From the NCBI GenBank assembly GCA_017459425.1, contig JAFUCZ010000006.1:1-53125 (forward strand): a DNA stretch of 53,125 bases, written 5' to 3'. The notes beneath the pieces are model-generated. The model was not told the origin of the DNA and ran no database searches. It worked only from the letters and a program-made list of their open reading frames with translations. This DNA comes from Bacilli bacterium. GTDB taxonomy: Bacteria; Bacillota_I; Bacilli_A; RF39; UBA660. This document shows positions 34,591 through 45,551 of this stretch, piece by piece. Numbering within the stretch: the first letter of the stretch is position 1; each line of letters opens with the position of its first letter. Both the position numbers and the translations under genes were made by a program.

Positions 34591-34600
34591 CTTCAGGGGG
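34591..34600. repeat. attL candidate core CTTCAGGGGG
   Basis: Ten-base G-rich direct repeat in an AT-rich sequence, identical to 43227-43236. It lies between the NERD gene and the element cargo. Confidence 0.5.
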
Positions 34601-34608
34601 AAATCTAA

Positions 34609-34626
34609 ATACCAGTTCGTAACAAT
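34609..34626. repeat. 18-base inverted repeat, left copy
   Basis: ATACCAGTTCGTAACAAT is the perfect reverse complement of 41931-41948, just upstream of the integrase gene. It may be an integrase or excisionase binding site, or a second recombination site. Confidence 0.7.
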
Positions 34627-34716
34627 TTAATAATTAGTTAAAGTCTTATAAAATAAGGCTTTTTCAGTTTCTTAAATTTACTAAAGTTTATTAAAATAAC
34701 TTAATTTTTGACATTT

Positions 34717-34740
34717 AGTATCTGGTTTTGGTATCTAGAA
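34717..34740. repeat. GTATCTGG/GGTATCTAGAA direct repeats, left end
   Basis: AGTATCTGGTTTTGGTATCTAGAA resembles 43146-43168 in the same orientation. Such short repeats at both ends of integrase elements are commonly arm-type binding sites. Confidence 0.6.
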
Positions 34741-35721
34741 TTCTAAATTCTTATCTTTTTCCATTTGTTCATATAACTTATTAATAAAATTTCCATTGTA
34801 AAACATTTTACAAATACCCTTTTTATTTGGATTTAAATATCTTGCTTTACAACATATTTCATTTTGTTCCAAAACTTTTTTTGCTCTATTAAAAAAATTA
34901 TTAATTTTCAATCCATATTTTTTCTTAAATTTTGCACACATTTCCGAATATGTAAGTGGATACATTTTTTTAAAAATCTCATCTGATAGTTCTACATTTA
35001 CTTTTTTACCCTCTTGTGCATATTTCAATAATAGTGCCTCATCAGTTTCAACTTTTGTAAATCTTAGTTCTGTCTTAATACAAACATCAAAATCATCCTT
35101 AATAGCACCAGATGCAGCCATTTCTAAATAATTAATGAAATTTTTTTGTGCTATATCTAAATTTGCTGTTTCTACATTTTCATCTATTCCTGAAAAGTTA
35201 ATAGGTGTAATATAAAAATTATATTTTGATAACTCAAAATTTGAAAACCACTTTTCTATTAAATGATAATAATTTTTTATTGTTGCAACACAAACAGTAT
35301 ATAATTTATATTTCATTAAATCATTATTACTATTTATGAAATGAATAGAATTATCTCTTATCTCAATCAACATTAAAATATTTTCAATAACATTAGATGA
35401 TATCTTTTTTTGATTTTTTAATGAATTCATCAAAGAAATTATTCCTTTTGTCATTGGCTCACCAATTCTGTTTTTCTTAATATAATCTCTTTTACTAGAA
35501 GTATTATCAATGAGTTTCTTTTTTTCATATTCATAAATTGAATTAATTTTTCCTGTATCTTCAACCACTTTTGCTTTAAATAATAGTTCATAAGCATTTA
35601 TTATCAAAATTGCAAAACTTTCTTCTCTATATTCAATATTAGGTTTATTATATAATTCAATTGCAAGTAACGCTGCAGACAAAGATTTTTCTAATAATCT
35701 ATTTGATATTTTTTTAGACAT
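34735..35721 (-). CDS. DUF3644 family protein with HEPN-type RX4H motif
   Basis: 328 residues. The N-terminal helical domain fits DUF3644: LLEKSLSAALLAIELYNKPNIEYREESFAILIINAYELLFKA. A candidate HEPN ribonuclease motif RDNSIH (R122 to H127) follows at the expected place in the second helical hairpin. The C-terminal third looks like a winged-helix/SAM-like nucleic-acid-binding region. DUF3644 proteins are widespread on mobile elements and are suspected of defence or toxin roles, but this is not demonstrated. It is element cargo and has a separate 190-base leader with a 15-base inverted repeat. Confidence 0.82.
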   Translation of the reverse strand: MSKKISNRLLEKSLSAALLAIELYNKPNIEYREESFAILIINAYELLFKAKVVEDTGKINSIYEYEKKKLIDNTSSKRDYIKKNRIGEPMTKGIISLMNSLKNQKKISSNVIENILMLIEIRDNSIHFINSNNDLMKYKLYTVCVATIKNYYHLIEKWFSNFELSKYNFYITPINFSGIDENVETANLDIAQKNFINYLEMAASGAIKDDFDVCIKTELRFTKVETDEALLLKYAQEGKKVNVELSDEIFKKMYPLTYSEMCAKFKKKYGLKINNFFNRAKKVLEQNEICCKARYLNPNKKGICKMFYNGNFINKLYEQMEKDKNLEF

Positions 35722-35911
35722 ACTTTCACTTCCTTACTACTAAAAAACGCCAATACAAAAACTTATAAATTATAAGCCTGTACTAGCGCTTCCCTTTTAT
35801 ATAACCATTATATCATAAATCTTTTAATTATGTTATTACATGACACTGTGACACATCGTTTGTTAGTACCTCTCAAGCATTTATAGTGTCATAGTGTCAT
35901 AAATATTGTTT
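35722..35911 (-). promoter_or_regulatory. Leader between kinase and DUF3644 genes with two hairpins
   Basis: A near-perfect 15-base inverted repeat (ATGACACTGTGACAC at 35840-35854, GTGTCATAGTGTCAT at 35886-35900, one mismatch) lies just after the kinase gene. Each arm holds two copies of (A/C)TGTCA. A second stem, CTTATA-AAT-TATAAG (35762-35776), is followed by T5 on the minus strand and is enclosed by weaker GCGC/GGCG pairing. These may be a terminator, an operator or a leader attenuator. Confidence 0.5.
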
Positions 35912-36400
35912 TTATCTTTCTACTTTATAAATAACATCATATTCATCTTCAGTAGGTTCTTCCCATTTAGATTCTAGTTTTTTCATTAATCCTTCGTCCA
36001 AATAGAAATCAGAACCACCAAAACCATCTAAAACTCTTTGGTTTCTTTCTTCAATATTTTGTTTCCAAGTATCATCATCAACACATACATAATGTATTTC
36101 ACAACCTACTTCATTATTTTTATAATATTCTTTTATTTCGTTTCTATCTTTACTTGACCAAAGTCCTCTTTCAAAAATTACATTAGCACCTGCTTTAGCA
36201 ATTTCACCAACTTTTCTAGTCAAATACTTATTCAATCTTTCAGAAAAGACATTATAAAATTCTCCTTGCTCATTATTTATTAATTCATAAGTAGCTTCAT
36301 CTGGTGAGATTATTACCGCATTTAATGAATCTTTTAATTGTTTTGAATAATAACTTTTACCACTACATATTTTTCCACATACTAATATTACTTTTCCCAT
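35912..36400 (-). CDS. P-loop kinase-like protein
   Basis: 162 residues with Walker A GKICSGKS (9-16), an adenylate-kinase-like ISPDEATYEL, and the lid-type segment IEERNQR. It belongs to the small AAA_33/zeta-toxin-like kinase group, which includes antibiotic phosphotransferases, polynucleotide kinases and nucleotide kinases; I cannot choose between them. It lies ten bases after the ABC-F gene with an AAGGAGG ribosome site, so it should be co-expressed with a ribosome protection-type protein; a drug-modifying role is a reasonable but unproven idea. Confidence 0.8.
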   Translation of the reverse strand: MGKVILVCGKICSGKSYYSKQLKDSLNAVIISPDEATYELINNEQGEFYNVFSERLNKYLTRKVGEIAKAGANVIFERGLWSSKDRNEIKEYYKNNEVGCEIHYVCVDDDTWKQNIEERNQRVLDGFGGSDFYLDEGLMKKLESKWEEPTEDEYDVIYKVER

Positions 36401-36410
36401 AGATACCTCC

Positions 36411-37913
36411 TTATCTTTCTTTCAATAATCCATCTGGTGTTAGAATATAAAGGGCATTTGCTACTTCATTAATATATTTTCTATCATGAGATACACTAAT
36501 TATAGTACCTTTATATTCTTTTAAAACTTTTCTAATAACAGGATTTGATAATGGGCTAACATTTCTTGTAGGCTCATCAAGTATTAAAACATCACATTTA
36601 TCTAATACTAATTTAATAAGAAATAGTTTTGCCTTGGTCCCATTACTTAAATCTTTAATATTACTAATCATTTCATCTCGAGTAAATTTCATATTTCCTA
36701 AAAACATTCTTGCTTTTGTAATTTCATCTTTACTGCCCTTAGGACAAACAAAATCTAATACATATTTATAATTATTTAAGATGTCATCATAAGTTTGTGG
36801 CATATAACCAACCTTGATATCATTTCTATCTTTTAATTCTTTATAAATTAACTTAATTAGTGTAGATTTACCAACACCATTTTTACCTATAATACATAAA
36901 TGTACATTACCAATTACATCTAACTTTATATTTCTAGATAATACCTTATCAGATACTTTTAATTCATCTATATTTAAATTGATTATATTTTTTGTTCTTG
37001 GCATTTCAACTTCTTCGAATGAAAAACCTATACTTTCTTCAACATCTGGTACTTCAGTTAATTCAGTTTCATCTAGTTTTCTCTCTTGTGATTTTAATGA
37101 ATGCATTTTCTTTTTTAAAACTTGAGCTCCATGTGGATCAGCTCTTGAAATTGTATTTTGTTTATATTCAACCTTTTGCATTATTCTTTGTAGTTTTTCT
37201 TGTTGCTTGTTAAATTCTCTTTTTTCAGATTTTGCTACTTGTGTTTGTTTTTCAATTTTTTTAAGTCTTTGTTCAACATAAGTATCATAATCAATTCTTA
37301 ATAATGTATGTCTACATTCAGTCTTCTTTTTTATTTGTTCTAAATGTAAAATCATATTTGCTGTATTAGCTAGTAATGTTTCATCATGTGAAACATACAT
37401 AATTGGCTTATTAGTATTATTAATAAATTTTTCTAACCATTCTAATGTTTCAATATCTAAATCATTAGTAGGCTCATCTAAAAATAAGATATCATATTCG
37501 TTTAATAGTAATTTTAAAATACTAATTTTAACTTTTTCGCCACCTGATAATGTTTTTATTTTTTGTTTTAAAATATCATCAGTTAAATTAATCAAGTCTA
37601 AGTATTTATATAAATTATTAATCTTATCATAATAATCACTTTCATCAATAAACAAAAATTCATATACACTTTTATCTAATTTATCAGTACTAATAGATTG
37701 TTCTAAATAACCAATTCTATTGCCTTTTAGATTAATATTTCCACTAATTTCAGCATATTCACAAATACCTAAAATTGATTTTAATAAAGTGGATTTACCG
37801 TTTCCTTCTTCACCAATAATAGCAAGTTTATCACCATTATTTAGTATTAAATTTAAATTTTTAATTAAATATCTATCACTAATAGATATAGTTAAATCTT
37901 TTATTTCTAACAT
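36411..37913 (-). CDS. ABC-F family ATPase, probable ribosomal protection protein
   Basis: Two ABC domains and no membrane domain (500 residues). ABC1: GEEGNGKST, LSGGEKVK, LFLDEPTNDLD. ABC2: GKNGVGKST, DLSNGTKAK (degenerate signature) and LILDEPTRNVSPLS, in which the usual NHLD is replaced by RNVSP. The linker (about 205-290) is long and charged, as in antibiotic-resistance ABC-F proteins that eject lincosamides, pleuromutilins or macrolides from ribosomes. Its leader carries a six-codon ORF and competing hairpins, the classic signal of antibiotic-induced expression. Substrate class unknown. Confidence 0.9.
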   Translation of the reverse strand: MLEIKDLTISISDRYLIKNLNLILNNGDKLAIIGEEGNGKSTLLKSILGICEYAEISGNINLKGNRIGYLEQSISTDKLDKSVYEFLFIDESDYYDKINNLYKYLDLINLTDDILKQKIKTLSGGEKVKISILKLLLNEYDILFLDEPTNDLDIETLEWLEKFINNTNKPIMYVSHDETLLANTANMILHLEQIKKKTECRHTLLRIDYDTYVEQRLKKIEKQTQVAKSEKREFNKQQEKLQRIMQKVEYKQNTISRADPHGAQVLKKKMHSLKSQERKLDETELTEVPDVEESIGFSFEEVEMPRTKNIINLNIDELKVSDKVLSRNIKLDVIGNVHLCIIGKNGVGKSTLIKLIYKELKDRNDIKVGYMPQTYDDILNNYKYVLDFVCPKGSKDEITKARMFLGNMKFTRDEMISNIKDLSNGTKAKLFLIKLVLDKCDVLILDEPTRNVSPLSNPVIRKVLKEYKGTIISVSHDRKYINEVANALYILTPDGLLKER

Positions 37914-37977
37914 ATTATGCCTCCTTTTTTCGGCATAATCAAAGTTTATGCCATACTTATTTAGTCATTGTTCTCAT
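37914..37977 (-). promoter_or_regulatory. Leader peptide and alternative hairpins upstream of ABC-F gene
   Basis: A tiny ORF (37977-37957, MRTMTK then stop) has its own GAGGTGAG ribosome site. Downstream, TTATGCC (37938-37932) can pair with GGCATAA (37952-37946) or, as ATTATGCC, with GGCATAAT (37921-37914), the second option locking part of the AGGAGG ribosome site. The two pairings exclude each other. A ribosome stalled on the leader peptide could switch them, as in erm and ABC-F attenuation. Confidence 0.75.
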
Positions 37978-38082
37978 TTTCTCACCTCTTAATTTTTAAA
38001 ATTTTTCTTAAAACAAATTTTTTTGATTTTTCGTTTTATATTTTTTTATAGAACGAATTTTTTGTTTTTTTCGTTCTATAAC

Positions 38083-38604
38083 TTAGTTTTTCTTTGGTAA
38101 TTTACTATAATCATATTTATGTTCTGCAAATTCTAATTCATCAAATGCGTATTGAATATCCTCAACCGCTTTATCAATAGTATATAAACTATCTTTATTA
38201 TCTTTCATTATTTGTAGATGTTCTATTATATAAAATAGTTTTTGTCTTGCATCACTTACTTTTTTTCTTTTTTCAGTATCAAATTCTAGTAATTCTCTTT
38301 GAGATTCTTCATAAGTTTTAATCATTTCTTTTAAATCCTTGCTAGATTTATTTGCATATTTATCTTTAGAAAAATAGAAAAGCATTTCATCATAACCTGC
38401 AACTTTTAATAATTTTTGCAATGACATATCTAACGTTTCAGCAATCTTTCGTAGATCATCAATATCTACTTTTTTTATTTTACCATTAATTAAATCGTTT
38501 AAAGTACTTCTACTTATACCAGTTAATTTAGCAAGTTCTCTTTGAGAAATTCCTTTTTCAACTCTTGCAGATTCAATTAGATTCTTAAGTTCTTCTGAGT
38601 TCAT
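38083..38604 (-). CDS. XRE-family transcriptional regulator of the element
   Basis: N-terminal helix-turn-helix (about 19-41, SQRELAKLTGISRSTLNDLI) in a Cro/C1-type domain; the C-terminal 100 residues are helical and charged, perhaps for dimerisation. Divergent from the plus-strand mobility genes with TCGGACA-type operators between, so probably the repressor of the element. Its own promoter would lie in the same region. The stop is followed by an inverted repeat TATAGAACGAA/TTCGTTCTATA (about 38042-38082). Confidence 0.9.
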   Translation of the reverse strand: MNSEELKNLIESARVEKGISQRELAKLTGISRSTLNDLINGKIKKVDIDDLRKIAETLDMSLQKLLKVAGYDEMLFYFSKDKYANKSSKDLKEMIKTYEESQRELLEFDTEKRKKVSDARQKLFYIIEHLQIMKDNKDSLYTIDKAVEDIQYAFDELEFAEHKYDYSKLPKKN

Positions 38605-38665
38605 TTAATCACTTCTTTCTTCCCTTTTCTTCCTTCACAATTTAATTTTAACACTTTTTTATTAA

Positions 38666-38745
38666 TTTGTCTATATTTTCGGACAAAAAGTATTGACATC
38701 TTTTTCGGACAATGTTATATTTAAATTGTCCTTAATATCGGACAT
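38666..38745 (+). promoter_or_regulatory. Promoter and operators of the element's mobility genes
   Basis: Plus-strand TTGACA (38693-38698), 17-base spacer, TATATT (38716-38721). TCGGACA half-sites occur at 38679, 38705 (inside the spacer) and 38738, with inverted TTGTC/TTGTCC at 38667 and 38726. Half-sites inside the spacer and around the -10 are well placed for repression by the divergent XRE protein. Confidence 0.7.
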
Positions 38746-38767
38746 AATTATAGAAAGGAGGATTTGT

Positions 38768-39025
38768 ATGAGATTACTAAAAAAACAAACTACTAATGAT
38801 TATGTAATACCTAAAACTTTATCAGTTGGTGCTATAGGTATGCTTAACTCTCTATTAGTTAGATCTAATAATGAACTTGCTAATATCGACCTCTACTCTC
38901 TTAGTAATGATAGTAGAAAAGATGTTGCTCTAGCATTTAGAGAATTAAGAAAAAAGAAATATATTATTTATAGTTCTTTAGATGATACATATTACATTTA
39001 TGTATCACCACAAAAAAATAATTAG
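38768..39025 (+). CDS. Small winged-helix-like protein of the element
   Basis: 85 residues starting at the ATG at 38768, which follows AAAGGAGG at good spacing (a longer in-frame reading has no ribosome site and would begin within the promoter). The sequence IGMLNSLLVRSNNELANIDLYSLSNDSRKDVALAFRELRKKKYI with a closing beta hairpin looks like a winged helix, as in small replication or excision accessory proteins. First gene of the plus-strand operon. No firm family. Confidence 0.75.
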   Translation: MRLLKKQTTNDYVIPKTLSVGAIGMLNSLLVRSNNELANIDLYSLSNDSRKDVALAFRELRKKKYIIYSSLDDTYYIYVSPQKNN

Positions 39026-39040
39026 GAAGGAGGAAAAAAT

Positions 39041-39292
39041 ATGTCTGCAGAAGAAACATTAAATTTAATAGCTAAGCAATGGTGCACCCTAGAAGATATT
39101 ATGAAGTTAGGACATCTAGGAAGAAATTCTGCACTAAAGGCTAAAAAGAAGATAAAAGAAAGGCTTGAAAAACAAGGTTATCTTATTCCAAAGTCTGTCG
39201 TTCCGACTAAGGAAGTTGTAGCATTCTTTGATATAGATATACCTTATTTAGAATCTAGAGTTTCTAGTAAAGAATTAATTAAAAAATTGTAA
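39041..39292 (+). CDS. Small helix-turn-helix protein, possible excisionase-type
   Basis: 83 residues; AKQWCTLEDIMKLGHLGRNSALKAKKKIKERL suggests a MerR/Xis-like helix-turn-helix recognition unit followed by basic helices. GGAGGAAAAA ribosome site. In Firmicutes integrative elements such proteins sit near the RepA-like ATPase and may act as excision or replication factors; the role here is inferred. Confidence 0.72.
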   Translation: MSAEETLNLIAKQWCTLEDIMKLGHLGRNSALKAKKKIKERLEKQGYLIPKSVVPTKEVVAFFDIDIPYLESRVSSKELIKKL

Positions 39293-39306
39293 GAAAGGAG
39301 ATACAA

Positions 39307-40257
39307 ATGAAACAATTAACTGAAATAAAAGAAAGCACAAAAAAAGATATCATCGTCGAAAACCTAATGATATCAAATGGAGTTTATCTACTTGTATCTC
39401 ATCCTAAGGTTGGCAAGTCAATGTTCGCTCAGCAACTTGCCTTCTCTCTTACTACTGGAGAAGATTTTTTAGGATTTAAAGTAAATCCCTCTCATGTCTT
39501 ATATATTACCACAGAGGGAGATATAAATCAATTAGAAACAAGATTTAAATTAATGAATTTAAAGCCTAAATTAGATAAACTTCACATAATAGATTCAGAT
39601 GATATATCAGATTTTTATATTAGAGATATTGAATATGATATTCATCAGTTAGCATCCAATAATCAAAAACTATTTGTCATTATAGATATGTTAAAAGATA
39701 TAAAATTTGATACTAGTTATGATTTAAATAACTATCAAGAAATAAATGATGTTGTATTTAGAAAATTAAGAGAGTTATGTAAAAAGTATAATATCACTCT
39801 ACTTGTTACTCATCATTTAAATAAAAGAGATGACACTATGGGTAGTGTTGGATTAAATGCTGATGTATCAGGAATAATTAAGTTAAAGGAATCAAGGAAT
39901 GATTATAATAAACTAACTTTGGATTATAAGGGTAGAGATTTAGGTAGATTAGAATTAAATTTAAAACGAAATGATAATCAAACATTTAGTGTTGTTGATG
40001 AAAATAACAATGATGAAACTGATTATAATCTACTCTTATTTATAAAATATGCAGTTTCTAAAAAAGATTTTGATTATACAATATCAGATATTTTATCTAA
40101 AACAAATATTTTATTAACTCCAACACAACTTGGAGGTTTAATTCAAAGAAACCTTAGTTTGTTGGAGCATGAAGGTCTTCATATAACAAATAAAAGAAAT
40201 GGTAATCAAAGATTATGGCATTGTACTTATGAAGAACCTTCAGAAAATAATGAATGA
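39307..40257 (+). CDS. RepA-like AAA (RecA-fold) ATPase
   Basis: 316 residues. Walker A-like SHPKVGKS (31-38), Walker B-like LFVIIDML, then LLVTHHLNK with a sensor histidine, and GRDLGRLELNL. This matches AAA_25/RepA-type hexameric helicase-like ATPases that accompany relaxases on plasmids and mobilizable elements. The C-terminal 80 residues look like a winged-helix. Probably acts in element replication or maintenance after excision. GGAG ribosome site. Confidence 0.85.
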   Translation: MKQLTEIKESTKKDIIVENLMISNGVYLLVSHPKVGKSMFAQQLAFSLTTGEDFLGFKVNPSHVLYITTEGDINQLETRFKLMNLKPKLDKLHIIDSDDISDFYIRDIEYDIHQLASNNQKLFVIIDMLKDIKFDTSYDLNNYQEINDVVFRKLRELCKKYNITLLVTHHLNKRDDTMGSVGLNADVSGIIKLKESRNDYNKLTLDYKGRDLGRLELNLKRNDNQTFSVVDENNNDETDYNLLLFIKYAVSKKDFDYTISDILSKTNILLTPTQLGGLIQRNLSLLEHEGLHITNKRNGNQRLWHCTYEEPSENNE

Positions 40258-40513
40258 AAGTGGCACGTTCTGACCTGTAAGGTTGGAAGTGGCGATAGTG
40301 AATTTATTATAAATTAATTAAAGGATATAGTATATCGTTTAATTAATCTTGTAATAGCGGATAACTTTATTTGACAAGTTCAAATATTGGCTCTAGCTAT
40401 TACAAGCATAAAGGATTCTAAGGAATATTCCTTAGCTCACGGTTGGGCATATAATTATGCCCTAGTGAGATAGAGTATTATTTTTAAAAAAATTTGAAAG
40501 GAGGCAAAAATAA
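40258..40513 (+). other. Structured intergenic region, candidate oriT
   Basis: Four strong inverted repeats lie directly upstream of the relaxase gene: ATTAATTAAA/TTTAATTAAT (40313-40347), CTTGTAATAGC/GCTATTACAAG (40348-40406), perfect palindrome CTAAGGAATATTCCTTAG (40418-40435), and CTCAC-GGGCATA/TATGCCC-GTGAG (40436-40469). MobV relaxases nick at inverted-repeat oriT sites next to their own gene, so this is the best oriT candidate. A regulatory RNA is the alternative. Confidence 0.55.
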
Positions 40514-41896
40514 ATGTACTCAGGTAAACAAGCACTACGATTAGAGAAATTTAAAGCATCAGATATTGGTGGATTAGATAAAGAATTAAAAGAAAGAAAA
40601 GGATCAGGTAAATATGATAGCACTAGAACTCCTTATAATATAGAATTAATAAATTATGATGGTCCTACTCTAGCTAGTTCAACTTATGATTATCTTTATT
40701 CTAACAATATAAACTATAATCCAAATAAGAAAAGTACTAAGGTATTAAATGGATTAATAATATCAAGTGGTCAAGAATTCTTTGAACAATATGGAATGAA
40801 ATTTAGAGATACTGGAGAAGTTTATAAAACTGGAGATAATGCTGGTAAATCAATTAGACATGTAATTATAGATGAAGAACACAGATTACCTACTGAAATA
40901 AGAAGATTCTTTGATGAAAGTCTTAACTTTATTTCTGATTATGTTGGTAAAGAAAATATTAGATATGCAGCAATACATCTTGATGAATCTACTCCACACA
41001 TGCATATTTACTTTACACCAGTTGTGAATGAAGTAAAAAGAAAAGTATTTGAACTTGATGAAAATGGTCATCAATTAAAGCATGAAATAACTAATAAAAA
41101 AGGAGAAAAAAAGTTAGTACCTATTCAAAAGAAAGATGAGAATGGAAAAAATATTTATGAAACAGTTAAAGGTAAATTTCTAAACTCAGATCAATTTTGG
41201 AAACAAAAAGGTGGCAATGCTTCTTATACCCTACTTCAAGATGATTATAATGAATTTATCAAATCTAAAGGTTATAACTTATTTAGAGGAGAAATTGGTG
41301 GAGATAAAACTCATTTAACTAATGCTATGAAACAACAAAAAGAATTAAATGCTTTAAACAAAGAAATAAGAAAAGAAAATGAACTATTAAAAGAGGCAAA
41401 TAAAAGCGAAAATGAGTTTATTGATAAAGTTGATAAAGAAACTTCTAAAGATATTTTAAATCCTGTTAAAAAAGGTCTTATTAAGCAATATAAAGATGAA
41501 GATATAGATAATCTATCTACTTATTCAAAAGAACTTGCTGAAGATAATATAAGAAAAGATTTAGAGATTAAATCACTTACTGAAGAAGTTAATAGTTTTA
41601 GATCTGGTAAGGCATATAAAGAACAAAATAAAATTATAGCTAATCAAAAAATTATTATTAACCAAAAAGATGATGAAATAAATACTTGGAAGAATAAATT
41701 TGAAGAATTAGCAGATGAATTTAAGAATTTTAAGAAAAAAATTCAAGATAAGATATACTCTCTTACTTCTAAAATATTTGATATTCTTCATATACCTTAT
41801 TCTTGGTATGAAGCAAATGATATTGATTACGCTATTGATACTACAAGAGATTATTTAAAAAAGCATTCAAAATCTAAAGATGATTTAGAGAGATAA
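40514..41896 (+). CDS. MobV (Pre/Mob) family relaxase
   Basis: 460 residues. The MobV motif HLDESTPHMH (155-164) gives the metal-binding histidines and acidic residue; the N-terminal part and a long coiled-coil tail (about 270-420, EIRKENELLKEANKSENEF) are typical of plasmid Pre/Mob proteins. It would nick the element at oriT and lead the strand into a recipient through a helper system. AAAGGAGG precedes the ATG. Confidence 0.92.
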   Translation: MYSGKQALRLEKFKASDIGGLDKELKERKGSGKYDSTRTPYNIELINYDGPTLASSTYDYLYSNNINYNPNKKSTKVLNGLIISSGQEFFEQYGMKFRDTGEVYKTGDNAGKSIRHVIIDEEHRLPTEIRRFFDESLNFISDYVGKENIRYAAIHLDESTPHMHIYFTPVVNEVKRKVFELDENGHQLKHEITNKKGEKKLVPIQKKDENGKNIYETVKGKFLNSDQFWKQKGGNASYTLLQDDYNEFIKSKGYNLFRGEIGGDKTHLTNAMKQQKELNALNKEIRKENELLKEANKSENEFIDKVDKETSKDILNPVKKGLIKQYKDEDIDNLSTYSKELAEDNIRKDLEIKSLTEEVNSFRSGKAYKEQNKIIANQKIIINQKDDEINTWKNKFEELADEFKNFKKKIQDKIYSLTSKIFDILHIPYSWYEANDIDYAIDTTRDYLKKHSKSKDDLER

Positions 41897-41930
41897 TTTA
41901 TAATATTATCAGTTTATATGATAAAATAAG

Positions 41931-41948
41931 ATTGTTACGAACTGGTAT
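41931..41948. repeat. 18-base inverted repeat, right copy
   Basis: ATTGTTACGAACTGGTAT, perfect reverse complement of 34609-34626, 32 bases before the integrase start. Confidence 0.7.
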
Positions 41949-41980
41949 ATTTATAAATTCCAACAAAGGAGGAACGATAT

Positions 41981-43099
41981 ATGGGAATATATAAATTACC
42001 TAAAAATCAATGGACTAAAGATGGTCGTAAATATAAATATTATTGGAACGAAAAAGATAAGAGTGGAAAATGGAAAAAGAAATTTTCACAAGCATATAAA
42101 ACTAAACTTGATGCAATGAATGCTGAAAGAGAGTTTCTAAATAATAAGGTTGAGTTTGGTGGAGATATGGATATGACATTTGGTACTCTTACTGACCAAT
42201 ATATTGAATCACAAAAAAATAAAGTTCGTAGAAGAACTATGGAAACATATTTAAAGAGAAGAAAATATTTTACTAGTTTTGAAAATGTTAAGTTAAAAGA
42301 TATGGATGGTAATCTATATCATAAATTTCAACAAGAACTATGGGATAAGCCTATTAAATGTTCTAGTAGAAATGATATTCAAAAATTTCTAAAAATTATT
42401 CTTAACTGGGGTATGAAAATGTATGATATTAATTTAATGCGTTTTTATAAAAAAATTGAATTTTTCAAAGATCCAAATGAGATGAAAGAAGAAAAAGATG
42501 TTTATACTTTTGAAGAATTTCAAAAATATATTACTGGTGCTACTAATTTAAATGATAAGACAATGTTTGAAATGTTATATTATTGTGGATTACGTCGTGG
42601 TGAATGTCGTGGACTACAATGGTCTGATATAGACTGGAATAATAAATTAGTATCTATTACAAAACAAGCTAATAGTGTTAAAGATAGTCAAAAATACTAT
42701 GAATTAACACCACCTAAAACTCAAAAGAGTATTAGAACATTACCTCTTACTGATGTTTTATACAATGATTTAGTAAATCTTTATAATGAAAAAAAGAAAT
42801 ACTATGGATTTAATGAAAAATGGTTTATCTTTGGAGAATTAGATCCATTAACATTTGGTATGATGCATAGAATAAATAAACGAATTGCTGAAAGTGCTGA
42901 TATCAGAAGAATACCACTACACTCTTTTAGACATAGTTGTGCATCTCTATTAATAAATACAGGTCAACCAGTAACAACTGTATCTAAGTATTTAGGACAT
43001 GCTAGTACTAAAGAAACATTAGATACTTATGCTCATATGTTTCCAAATAATCTTACTAATGTAAAAAATACCATAGATAATTTAAATCTAGGTATTTAA
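41981..43099 (+). CDS. Tyrosine recombinase (integrase) of the element
   Basis: 372 residues: N-terminal arm-binding domain (YYWNEKDKSGKWKKKFSQAYKT), core-binding helices (about 68-165) and catalytic domain with R206 (GLRRGE), H314-x-x-R317 (HSFRH), H340 (LGHAS) and nucleophile Y350 (DTYAHMF). Tn916/phage-type integrase. GGAGGAACGATAT ribosome site. It lies at the right end, adjacent to arm-like repeats and the att candidate, as usual. Confidence 0.95.
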   Translation: MGIYKLPKNQWTKDGRKYKYYWNEKDKSGKWKKKFSQAYKTKLDAMNAEREFLNNKVEFGGDMDMTFGTLTDQYIESQKNKVRRRTMETYLKRRKYFTSFENVKLKDMDGNLYHKFQQELWDKPIKCSSRNDIQKFLKIILNWGMKMYDINLMRFYKKIEFFKDPNEMKEEKDVYTFEEFQKYITGATNLNDKTMFEMLYYCGLRRGECRGLQWSDIDWNNKLVSITKQANSVKDSQKYYELTPPKTQKSIRTLPLTDVLYNDLVNLYNEKKKYYGFNEKWFIFGELDPLTFGMMHRINKRIAESADIRRIPLHSFRHSCASLLINTGQPVTTVSKYLGHASTKETLDTYAHMFPNNLTNVKNTIDNLNLGI

Positions 43100-43123
43100 A
43101 TAAACTTAAATAAAAAATAAATA

Positions 43124-43168
43124 TGGTATCTGAAAATTGATTTTTGGTATCTGGCTTGGTATCTAGAA
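43124..43168. repeat. GGTATCT repeats, right end
   Basis: Three copies in the same orientation (about 43125, 43146 and 43157), the last two forming GGTATCTGGCTTGGTATCTAGAA, matching 34717-34740. Probable integrase arm sites. Confidence 0.6.
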
Positions 43169-43199
43169 AAATCAATAATCACTGAAAACCCTTATAAAA

Positions 43200-43296
43200 C
43201 AAAAAGTGTTCCCTCTTTCGAGGGAACTTCAGGGGGTTTTGGTTGAGCAAATTCACAATAAATACCGTAAATTTACTCGCGTGAACTATTCACGCT
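43200..43296 (-). ncRNA. Predicted small RNA carrying the element's attachment site (C-rich, 'sRNA-2')
   Basis: From its promoter the RNA should begin with hairpin GCGTGAA-TAG-TTCACGC (43295-43279), continue through a mostly unpaired stretch containing AAAACCCCCTGAAG (about 43240-43227) and end with terminator GTTCCCTC-GAAA-GAGGGAAC (43227-43208) then ACTTTTTG. The attR core (CCCCCTGAAG in RNA sense) is inside it, so the 3' end is donated by the element. No ORF, no family recognised. Confidence 0.65.
43227..43236. repeat. attR candidate core CTTCAGGGGG
   Basis: Identical to 34591-34600; overlaps the predicted small RNA. Confidence 0.5.
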
Positions 43297-43302
43297 AGTA
43301 TA

Positions 43303-43331
43303 ATTATAAAATCATATTTAAAAAAAGTCAA
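43303..43331 (-). promoter_or_regulatory. Promoter of sRNA-2
   Basis: TTGACT (43331-43326), 17-base spacer, perfect TATAAT (43308-43303) on the minus strand, just beyond the recG stop codon and a small stem (TGTAAA/TTTACA). Confidence 0.75.
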
Positions 43332-43355
43332 TCACTTAATGTAAACAAATTTACA

Positions 43356-45332
43356 CTAATCCAAATGTTCTTTAATTACCATATTTAATACATTTGGATA
43401 GTTATTTTTTAATGATGAATTTAAGAAATATGTGCTGTCATCACGAGCTTTTACTAATATAGAAAAATCCTTTTTAATATCTGCTATTTTAAATGACATT
43501 TCACCACTTTGCCTTACGCCAAATAAATCTCCACTACCTCTTAATTTAAAATCTTCTTCACTTATTTTAAACCCATCATTAGTTTTTTCTAATATTTCAA
43601 GGCGCTTAGTTTTATTTTTAGAAACCAATATACAATATGATTGATACTCTCCTCTACCAACTCTTCCTCTTAATTGATGTAGCGCTGATAAACCAAATAA
43701 TTCTGCATCAAAAATAACCATCATTGTAGCATTTGGTACATTAACACCAACTTCTATAACTGTAGTAGAAACAAGTATATCAATTTTTTTATCTTTAAAA
43801 CTCTCCATTATTTCATCTTTTTTATCTTGTTTCATTTTGCCATGTAATGAACCAATCTTATACTTACTTCCAAATGCTTTTTCCATATTATTTGTAATTA
43901 ATTCTATATCTTTTAAATTACTGTTTTCACTTTCTTCTATAAGTGGCGCTATAACATATACCTGATGATTTAGTTTTAATTCTCTATAAATATTTTGTAA
44001 AACTTCTTTAATATTATTTTCTTCCATAACAGTAGTAATTATTTCTTTTCTACCACTTGGAAGCACTTTAATATTACTTACATCCATATCACCATATATA
44101 GTAAGTGCATACGTTCTTGGAATTGGAGTTGCGCTCATATATAAAATATCTGGTGTAATACCTTTGTTTTTTAAAGTTGAACGTTGTTTCACACCAAATC
44201 TATGTTGTTCATCAGTTATTACTAGACCTAAATTGTTGTATTCTACATCATTTGAAAATAATGCATGTGTTCCAACTATTATGTCATATTCTTTATTTTT
44301 AATTTTGCTTAATATTTCTTTTCTTTCTTTTTGTTTTAAACTACTTGTTACAATACAAACATTAATATCAGGAAACAAATTAGTTAATTCATTATAATGT
44401 TGTTTTGCTAGTATTTCAGTTGGTGCCATTAAACAACCTTGATAACCACTTAAATAATTCATATAAAGCGATATAAATGATACTATTGATTTACCACTTC
44501 CTACATCACCTTGTAATAATCTATTCATTTGACTCGGAGAAATAAAGTCATTATATATATCTTTTACCGCATTAACTTGATCAAGCGTTAATTTAAATTT
44601 TAATGAATTAATAAATTCTTTTACTAAATTAAAATCAAAATTTTTCTTTAATCCTAAAGTATTTTTACTATCATTTTGTAAATATTTCATTTTAACCATA
44701 AATAAGAAAAATTCCTCATATTTAAATCTATTTAATGATTTTTTTAACGTTGATAAATTACTTGGATTATGTAATTCAACTAAGCTTTTTTTCTTATCTA
44801 AAAAATTATATTTTGTACTAAACTCACTAGGTATATAATCTATTAATTCAAAATCAGTAGTTATAACTTTATTTATTAAATCCCTTATTTTTTTACTTGT
44901 TATACCATTTACCGTGTGATAAATAGGTTCTATTATTGGTTTATCAGGTAATACTCCAAAACGAATATCAGAAGCTACAATTAAATTATGCTTTTCATCA
45001 TATTTTCCAATAATAATAACATTTGTATTTGGAATAAGTCTATTCTTTAAATAACCTCTATTAAATATACACACATTTATTAATTTATTATTTGTATGTA
45101 ATACAAATTTCATCCTATCTTTTCTATTTCTTAAAAATACAACTGTAGCATAATTTTCTATAACTCCATCTATTATTACTTTATCGTCATGATTTAAAGC
45201 TTTACTTTTTTCTAATATTTCATATCTAAATGGATAAAAATTAATCAAATCCAAAGTAGTATTAATTCCAAGTTTAGATAGATTACTTAATAATTTTGGG
45301 CCTACACCTTTTATTTGTTTTATATCAATCAT
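43356..45332 (-). CDS. recG: ATP-dependent DNA helicase RecG
   Basis: RecG reverses stalled replication forks and branch-migrates Holliday junctions. The N-terminal wedge domain has IKGVGPKLLSNLSKLGI; helicase motifs are LLQGDVGSGKS (I), MAPTEILAKQHY (Ia), ITDEQHRFG (II), MSATPIPRT (III), VIEVGVNVPNAT (V) and QLRGRVGRG (VI). About 658 residues from the start at 45332, chosen because AAAGGAGTAAT precedes this ATG; 19 upstream codons overlap the promoter. Confidence 0.97.
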   Translation of the reverse strand: MIDIKQIKGVGPKLLSNLSKLGINTTLDLINFYPFRYEILEKSKALNHDDKVIIDGVIENYATVVFLRNRKDRMKFVLHTNNKLINVCIFNRGYLKNRLIPNTNVIIIGKYDEKHNLIVASDIRFGVLPDKPIIEPIYHTVNGITSKKIRDLINKVITTDFELIDYIPSEFSTKYNFLDKKKSLVELHNPSNLSTLKKSLNRFKYEEFFLFMVKMKYLQNDSKNTLGLKKNFDFNLVKEFINSLKFKLTLDQVNAVKDIYNDFISPSQMNRLLQGDVGSGKSIVSFISLYMNYLSGYQGCLMAPTEILAKQHYNELTNLFPDINVCIVTSSLKQKERKEILSKIKNKEYDIIVGTHALFSNDVEYNNLGLVITDEQHRFGVKQRSTLKNKGITPDILYMSATPIPRTYALTIYGDMDVSNIKVLPSGRKEIITTVMEENNIKEVLQNIYRELKLNHQVYVIAPLIEESENSNLKDIELITNNMEKAFGSKYKIGSLHGKMKQDKKDEIMESFKDKKIDILVSTTVIEVGVNVPNATMMVIFDAELFGLSALHQLRGRVGRGEYQSYCILVSKNKTKRLEILEKTNDGFKISEEDFKLRGSGDLFGVRQSGEMSFKIADIKKDFSILVKARDDSTYFLNSSLKNNYPNVLNMVIKEHLD

Positions 45333-45360
45333 ATTACTCCTTTCATACCATAACAAATAC

Positions 45361-45389
45361 AATATAACAAACTTATGTTTGCATGTCAA
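45361..45389 (-). promoter_or_regulatory. Promoter of recG
   Basis: TTGACA (45389-45384), 17-base spacer, TATATT (45366-45361), about 29 bases upstream of the start codon. Confidence 0.8.
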
Positions 45390-45404
45390 TTATTTTTTTA
45401 CAAA

Positions 45405-45434
45405 TAATTAAAAAATGCTTGACAAATCAAGCAT
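45405..45434 (-). terminator. Terminator overlapping the sRNA-1 promoter
   Basis: TGCTTGA-TTTG-TCAAGCA on the minus strand (about 45433-45416) followed by T6. It would stop the transcript of the 386-residue gene. The same palindrome holds the plus-strand -35 box TTGACA. Confidence 0.7.
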
Positions 45435-45447
45435 AATCGATTATTAT
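45419..45447 (+). promoter_or_regulatory. Consensus promoter of sRNA-1
   Basis: Plus strand TTGACA (45419-45424), 17-base spacer, TATTAT (45442-45447). No plus-strand ORF follows, only a structured RNA with a terminator. Confidence 0.8.
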
Positions 45448-45453
45448 AGAAAG

Positions 45454-45551
45454 CACCAATTCGAAATTAGGCGAATTGGAAGCTAGTATCACACTAGCCA
45501 ACCCCTTTTTATTCTTTTATGAACTGTTCTCAGGGGGACAGTTCTTTTTTT
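45454..45551 (+). ncRNA. Predicted small RNA (C-rich, 'sRNA-1')
   Basis: About 98 bases: hairpin CCAATTCG/CGAATTGG (45456-45479), hairpin GCTAGT/ACTAGC (45482-45498), single-stranded CAACCCCTTTTT (45499-45510), then terminator GAACTGT/ACAGTTC (45521-45544) with T7. The terminator loop CTCAGGGGG could pair with the CCCC as a pseudoknot. No ORF or known RNA family recognised; the unpaired CCCC recalls RsaE-type Gram-positive sRNAs that bind ribosome sites. Confidence 0.72.

Follow-up and report, generated by a model that had tools for sequence, protein, structure and literature searches.

Two small RNA families predicted on either side of recG in uncultured gut Bacilli

Two putative RNA genes flanking recG

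The window analysed here, a stretch of 53,125 nucleotides, is a contig of a 1.09-Mb MAG (85.6% complete) whose named relatives are MAGs of uncultured gut 'Bacilli', 'Tenericutes' and 'Erysipelotrichaceae'. In it, recG is flanked by the genes of two putative small RNAs, which we call sRNA1 and sRNA2, and the features of this region are the following.

43208 to 43227, minus strand: terminator of sRNA1, apparently supplied by an integrated element
43205 to 43296, minus strand: sRNA1 (covariance model R2), starting at about 43296, downstream of recG and on the same strand
43227 to 43244, minus strand: single-stranded core of sRNA1, AACCAAAACCCCCTGAAG, which includes the attR core CCCCCTGAAG (43227-43236)
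43246 to 43295, minus strand: hairpins 1 (43295-43279) and 2 (43278-43246) of sRNA1, with compensatory changes
43303 to 43331, minus strand: promoter of sRNA1, TTGACT-17-TATAAT, with TTGAC invariant in 46 of 46 relatives
43356 to 45332, minus strand: recG, between the sRNA1 and sRNA2 genes
45419 to 45447, plus strand: promoter of sRNA2, TTGACA-17-TATTAT, with TTGAC and TA..ATA invariant in 83 of 83 relatives
45455 to 45551, plus strand: sRNA2 (model R1), about 97 nt, divergent from recG, its start placed from the promoter
45456 to 45479, plus strand: hairpin 1 of sRNA2, CCAATTCG...CGAATTGG, paired in 52 of 52 sequences with compensatory change at 3 pairs
45482 to 45518, plus strand: near-invariant 37-nt stretch of sRNA2, made of hairpin 2 (45482-45498) and the seed CAACCCCTTTTTATTCTTTT (45499-45518)
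45521 to 45544, plus strand: terminator of sRNA2, with a covarying stem and a conserved loop, TCAGGGGG (45530-45537), complementary to CCCCCTGA of sRNA1

Both promoters rank in the top three among the 29 promoter-like sites of the region, and the terminator-like hairpins (4 observed, 0.5 expected) include those at 45521-45544(+) and 43227-43208(-). sRNA2 folds into two hairpins, a free CAACCCCUUUUUAUUCUUUU and the terminator (-29.3 kcal/mol, z -4.3), and sRNA1 into two hairpins, a free AACCAAAACCCCCUGAAG and the terminator (-39.5 kcal/mol, z -7.7). The original prediction had placed promoters, hairpins, free C-runs and terminators at both loci, and the promoter and terminator scans and the folding recovered them at the same positions; its claim that neither locus has coding potential agrees with the absence of ORFs of at least 60 aa over either transcript. 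For the minus-strand RNA it had named one hairpin, followed by an unpaired C-rich segment and a terminator. This layout was retained, except that folding gives two hairpins.

Conservation and status of the two families

A DNA search found both RNA loci across the family. The sRNA2 covariance model, built from 52 sequences, matched 174 of 193 family genomes and 79 of 84 genera, with 0 matches among 345 genomes of the class outside the family. The sRNA1 model matched about 40 of 53 family genomes and, outside the family, gave one strong match (G355, E 1e-13) and one further weak one. The strong homologue (G355:C5:1301-1405; L274/L302) lies in another family, and horizontal transfer is possible. 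In all 51 testable loci sRNA2 and recG are oriented divergently, a median of 82 nt apart, and in all 44 sRNA1 loci the RNA gene comes after recG in the same orientation, at a median of about 35 nt; an exception is G071, where the two RNA genes are convergent and 40 nt apart. In G195 (C1:117048-117308, L290) sRNA2 occurs as a tandem duplication, with the GGGGG loop lost from one of the copies.

Within sRNA2, the stretch GCTAGTATCACACTAGCCAACCCCTTTTTATTCTTTT stays near-invariant across 84 genera, with almost all of its columns identical in the 84-sequence alignment; among bacterial sRNAs such near-complete invariance over 37 nt is unusual. Each pair of the terminator stem has undergone compensatory change, while its loop CAGGGGG is retained in 73 of 84 despite the changing stem. 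In the sRNA1 model 14 of 15 pairs covary, with compensatory changes at 6/7 pairs of hairpin 1 and 5/5 of hairpin 2, and the core ACCCCCTGAA is near-invariant among relatives. For both structures the covariation exceeds that of shuffled and slid controls. The original prediction had staked itself on the conservation of stems and C-run in relatives; the stems are indeed kept through compensatory changes, both C-runs are near-invariant, and the synteny with recG is maintained.

The Rfam covariance search that had been proposed along with it returned no family at either locus, at gathering or permissive thresholds. Membership of RsaE/RoxS (RF01820) was rejected, since the score was 14.3 bits against a gathering threshold of 79, with no homology. 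The Listeria sRNA sbrA (RF01489) gave a weak local match to the part comprising seed and terminator (21.8 bits, E 0.025), and was likewise rejected against a gathering threshold of 45 bits, the score in a relative being 15.0 bits. The idea of a 'paired sRNA family' has to be split: two RNA families do occur together, but they are not one family, because sRNA1 and sRNA2 are not homologous. We hold with high confidence that sRNA1 and sRNA2 are two genuine, new and co-conserved RNA families. Neither is in Rfam, and the family that carries them is a large one of uncultured gut Bacilli, whose genomes measure about 1 Mb; our literature search found no work on regulatory RNA in this family.

Candidate partners of sRNA1 and sRNA2

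A protein-similarity search retrieved the gene pilB, which encodes the type IV pilus/competence assembly ATPase (PF00437), from 133 of 141 genera, and a complement of the sRNA2 seed recurs near its start in independent genera, as AAAAGGGGTTGA immediately 5' of the start codon; in L328 the complement comes with GGAG. The predicted pairing of the seed with pilB start regions averaged -16.5 kcal/mol over 30 genera, compared with -8.6 for 347 other starts (p=6e-17), and 0 of 200 shuffled seeds matched this difference. The 20 most divergent pilB genes, picked without regard to the motif, gave -16.3 kcal/mol, two of their starts being apparently misplaced. Pairing at pilin and PilD start sites was weaker than at pilB, and the 11-mer seed complement had no genome-wide enrichment over its reversed control. 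The complementarity is also kept at pilB in some genomes without a detected sRNA2 (e.g. G016 and G085). Judged by complementarity, pilB is a well supported and testable target of sRNA2. In the window's own MAG, at 85.6% completeness, pilB was not found, so, unless the assembly lacks the gene, sRNA2 would need a different target there. Upstream of pilB (L457-L486) lies a conserved hairpin-like motif immediately 3' of the pilB -10 box, reading TAGGATAAATGCTAGTCCTA in one clade and TAGTAAAATACCATA in another.

Longer exact complements of sRNA2 (18-23 nt) are restricted to single lineages. Exact 18-nt complements in trans, a prophage copy among them, were found in only 6 of 49 genomes and were set aside as a family-wide target. 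A 23-nt exact complement of the seed lies within the rsmH/mraW coding sequence (PF01795) of G005:C48 and G059:C23 (L326, L295), where it encodes KRIKRGW, and G119 has a long one at the parB start. Four genomes (G008, G002, G039 and G058) carry a complement upstream of an HTH gene adjoining ppdK. In L289, L292, L293 and L296 the seed complement stands with a hairpin 5' of an HTH-like gene that follows ppdK, and in L289 it falls within a possible leader ORF whose peptide, KRIKRGWL, is as in rsmH.

Firmicutes sRNAs characteristically aim C-rich regions at Shine-Dalgarno sites (PMC9410917), and for Staphylococcus it is established that C-rich sRNAs block them (PMC9217828, PMC9410917). Both features of such RNAs are found here: a conserved unpaired C-run between conserved stems, with its own promoter and terminator, and, for sRNA2, complementarity to the ribosome-binding site of a conserved target, pilB. 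The original prediction had likened the RNAs to C-rich Gram-positive sRNAs such as RsaE, a comparison that holds as a mode of action. What is shared with RsaE/RoxS, RNAIII and IsrR is the free C-run between hairpins set against G-rich ribosome-binding sites; unlike RsaE/RoxS, the RNA described here has a single copy of the C-run, a 20-nt invariant seed and pilB as predicted target.

The most widespread predicted partner of sRNA1 is sRNA2 itself, through its G-rich terminator loop. CCCCCTGA of sRNA1 and the sRNA2 loop TCAGGGGG can pair over 8 bp (-17.3 kcal/mol); co-folding of the two RNAs predicts exactly this contact between loop and core. In the window's genome CAGGGGG occurs at four sites only, namely the sRNA2 loop, the complement of sRNA1, the att copy and one position inside a coding sequence. 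Against the genes of the window, the sRNA1 seed scored best (-16.5) at one small-protein start. In G063 and G071 the sRNA1 core is degenerate and the sRNA2 loop is lost too. Such joint loss is limited to these two cases, while at least 8 genomes with an intact sRNA1 core have lost or changed the loop, and the motifs are too invariant for covariation to be read from them. Since the loop is altered or lost in these genomes, it is not the sole partner of sRNA1, which we read as pointing to additional targets. In S. aureus, G-rich regions of RsaI bind the UCCCC seeds of RsaE (PMC9217828), an established case of a GGGG-loop sRNA pairing with a UCCCC sRNA. The conserved mutual complementarity of C-run and G-run that marks such sponge pairs is present here, and sRNA1 and sRNA2 are a candidate natural sRNA-sRNA pair resembling RsaI-RsaE in that a G-rich region of one would pair with the C-rich seed of the other; unlike in that pair, the G-run lies in the terminator loop of an RNA with a C-rich seed of its own, and the two genes flank recG. 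We regard the contact as plausible.

A further set of possible partners is found in some genomes. Outside sRNA1, TCAGGGGGTT adjoins hydrophobic ORFs of 22-35 aa at 16 of 30 sites by strict counting, against a background of 5%. The flanks of these peptide genes, on the 5' or 3' side, carry TCAGGGGGTT, extending to TCAGGGGGTTTTGG, with up to 14 nt complementary to sRNA1. The peptide genes (L428-L456) are multicopy in G011, G012, G021 and G034 and single in G054, often at contig ends. The peptides possibly resemble type I toxins. As in type I toxin-antitoxin systems with a trans-acting RNA (SprA2AS, PMC6393315), mRNAs of hydrophobic peptides are perfectly complementary to a small RNA; unlike in those, this is seen in few genomes, and the site varies in position, lying either on the 5' side or immediately past the stop.

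On balance we lean towards two independent, family-wide trans-acting sRNAs, each made from its own promoter to its own terminator. The free CCAACCCCUUUUUAUUCUUUU of sRNA2 would bind the ribosome-binding sites of pilB and probably of further mRNAs, most likely blocking translation, while sRNA1 would act through its free AACCAAAACCCCCUGAAG, binding and modulating sRNA2 via the G-rich terminator loop and, in some genomes, also fitting the mRNAs of the tiny hydrophobic peptides. The sequences themselves show conservation, structure, synteny and complementarity; from these we infer the transcription of both RNAs, their pairing in the cell and the direction of its effect. The invariance of hairpin 2 in sRNA2 is left over by the proposed pairings and counts against this explanation.

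The same loop could instead pair in cis, GGGGG with the CCCCU of sRNA2 itself, as a pseudoknot hiding the seed, with sRNA1 unrelated. AGGGG and CCCCU are both conserved in one molecule and their duplex reaches -9.7 kcal/mol, but the pairing in trans with sRNA1 is stronger (-17.3 kcal/mol), the pseudoknot uses AGGGG only, so that the extra C and the fifth G of the conserved (T)CAGGGGG fit sRNA1 alone, and the seed stays invariant in genomes without the loop; we consider the pseudoknot a rather unlikely account. We are just as doubtful that the chief role of sRNA1 is that of a type I antitoxin RNA, directed in trans at mRNAs of small hydrophobic toxins, with the pairing to sRNA2 secondary. The clustering of TCAGGGGGTT beside the small hydrophobic ORFs speaks for it; against it, most genomes, the window's included, have the sRNA1 10-mer in sRNA1 alone, a search of the peptides against Pfam gave no match, and an mRNA that encodes a small hydrophobic peptide and is complementary to sRNA1 occurs only in the five genomes named above and is absent from the window's.

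It seems to us very improbable that the invariant stretches act as DNA, in the form of recombination or protein-binding sites, and not as RNA. The 37-nt sequence is unusually invariant, and the sRNA1 core does in fact serve as an integration core, but that use spans only 10 bp of sRNA1, and both loci have consensus promoters, covarying RNA stems and terminators. It is harder still to believe that sRNA2 is a cis-regulatory leader or an antisense RNA of recG or of a downstream gene: it adjoins recG in all testable loci, yet it is divergent from recG, has its own terminator, is in tandem in G195 and occurs at second sites in G221.

Mobile elements at sRNA1 and phage copies of the sRNA2 core

The original prediction made no mention of integration. 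The 3' end of sRNA1 in the window is occupied by a mobile element with these features.

34591 to 43236: integrative mobilizable element of about 8.6 kb, inserted in the 3' end of sRNA1, with the 10-bp core CCCCCTGAAG at both ends
34600-34591, minus strand: second copy of the core CCCCCTGAAG, followed by an apparent decayed terminator
38083-38604, minus strand: XRE regulator of the element
40514-41896, plus strand: Mob_Pre relaxase of the element
41981-43099, plus strand: tyrosine integrase (PF00589) of the element, near the 3' end of sRNA1

The 10-bp att core was not picked up by a direct-repeat search. A related integrase lies directly 3' in 11 of the 50 motif-bearing flanks searched, and two of these 11, from other genera, are 95-99% identical to the integrase of the window and have the same terminator. 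Two copies of the core bound elements of about 3 and 13 kb in other genomes. By this sequence evidence the sRNA1 terminator doubles as an integration site for mobile elements, a regulatory RNA gene being used as an integration hotspot. Across genera, identical terminators stand behind sRNA1 bodies that have diverged, suggesting that the elements swap the sRNA1 terminator upon integration. As at tRNA and tmRNA genes, the incoming element makes good the 3' end of the RNA gene, and a displaced copy stays behind; unlike there, the target is the terminator of a regulatory sRNA.

Copies of the host sRNA core are carried by phages. The 37-nt core of sRNA2, without its first hairpin, is present in two IMG/VR contigs, L531 (IMGVR_UViG_3300027542_000279) and L532 (7960-8150), which are identical in sequence around it, and there it lies directly 3' of a tRNA-like gene ending in CCA (35.3 bits). 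A phage reference collection yielded no sRNA2-core sequence. One might imagine a two-sRNA circuit that controls type IV pili family-wide, sRNA2 repressing the pili and sRNA1 reading the terminator loop of sRNA2, with phages carrying the core, processable from the tRNA-like gene, to switch off the pili of the host; we think this quite unlikely. A prophage-like locus in G004 (C1 about 75200; L288/L317) carries the sRNA2 core, again without the first hairpin.
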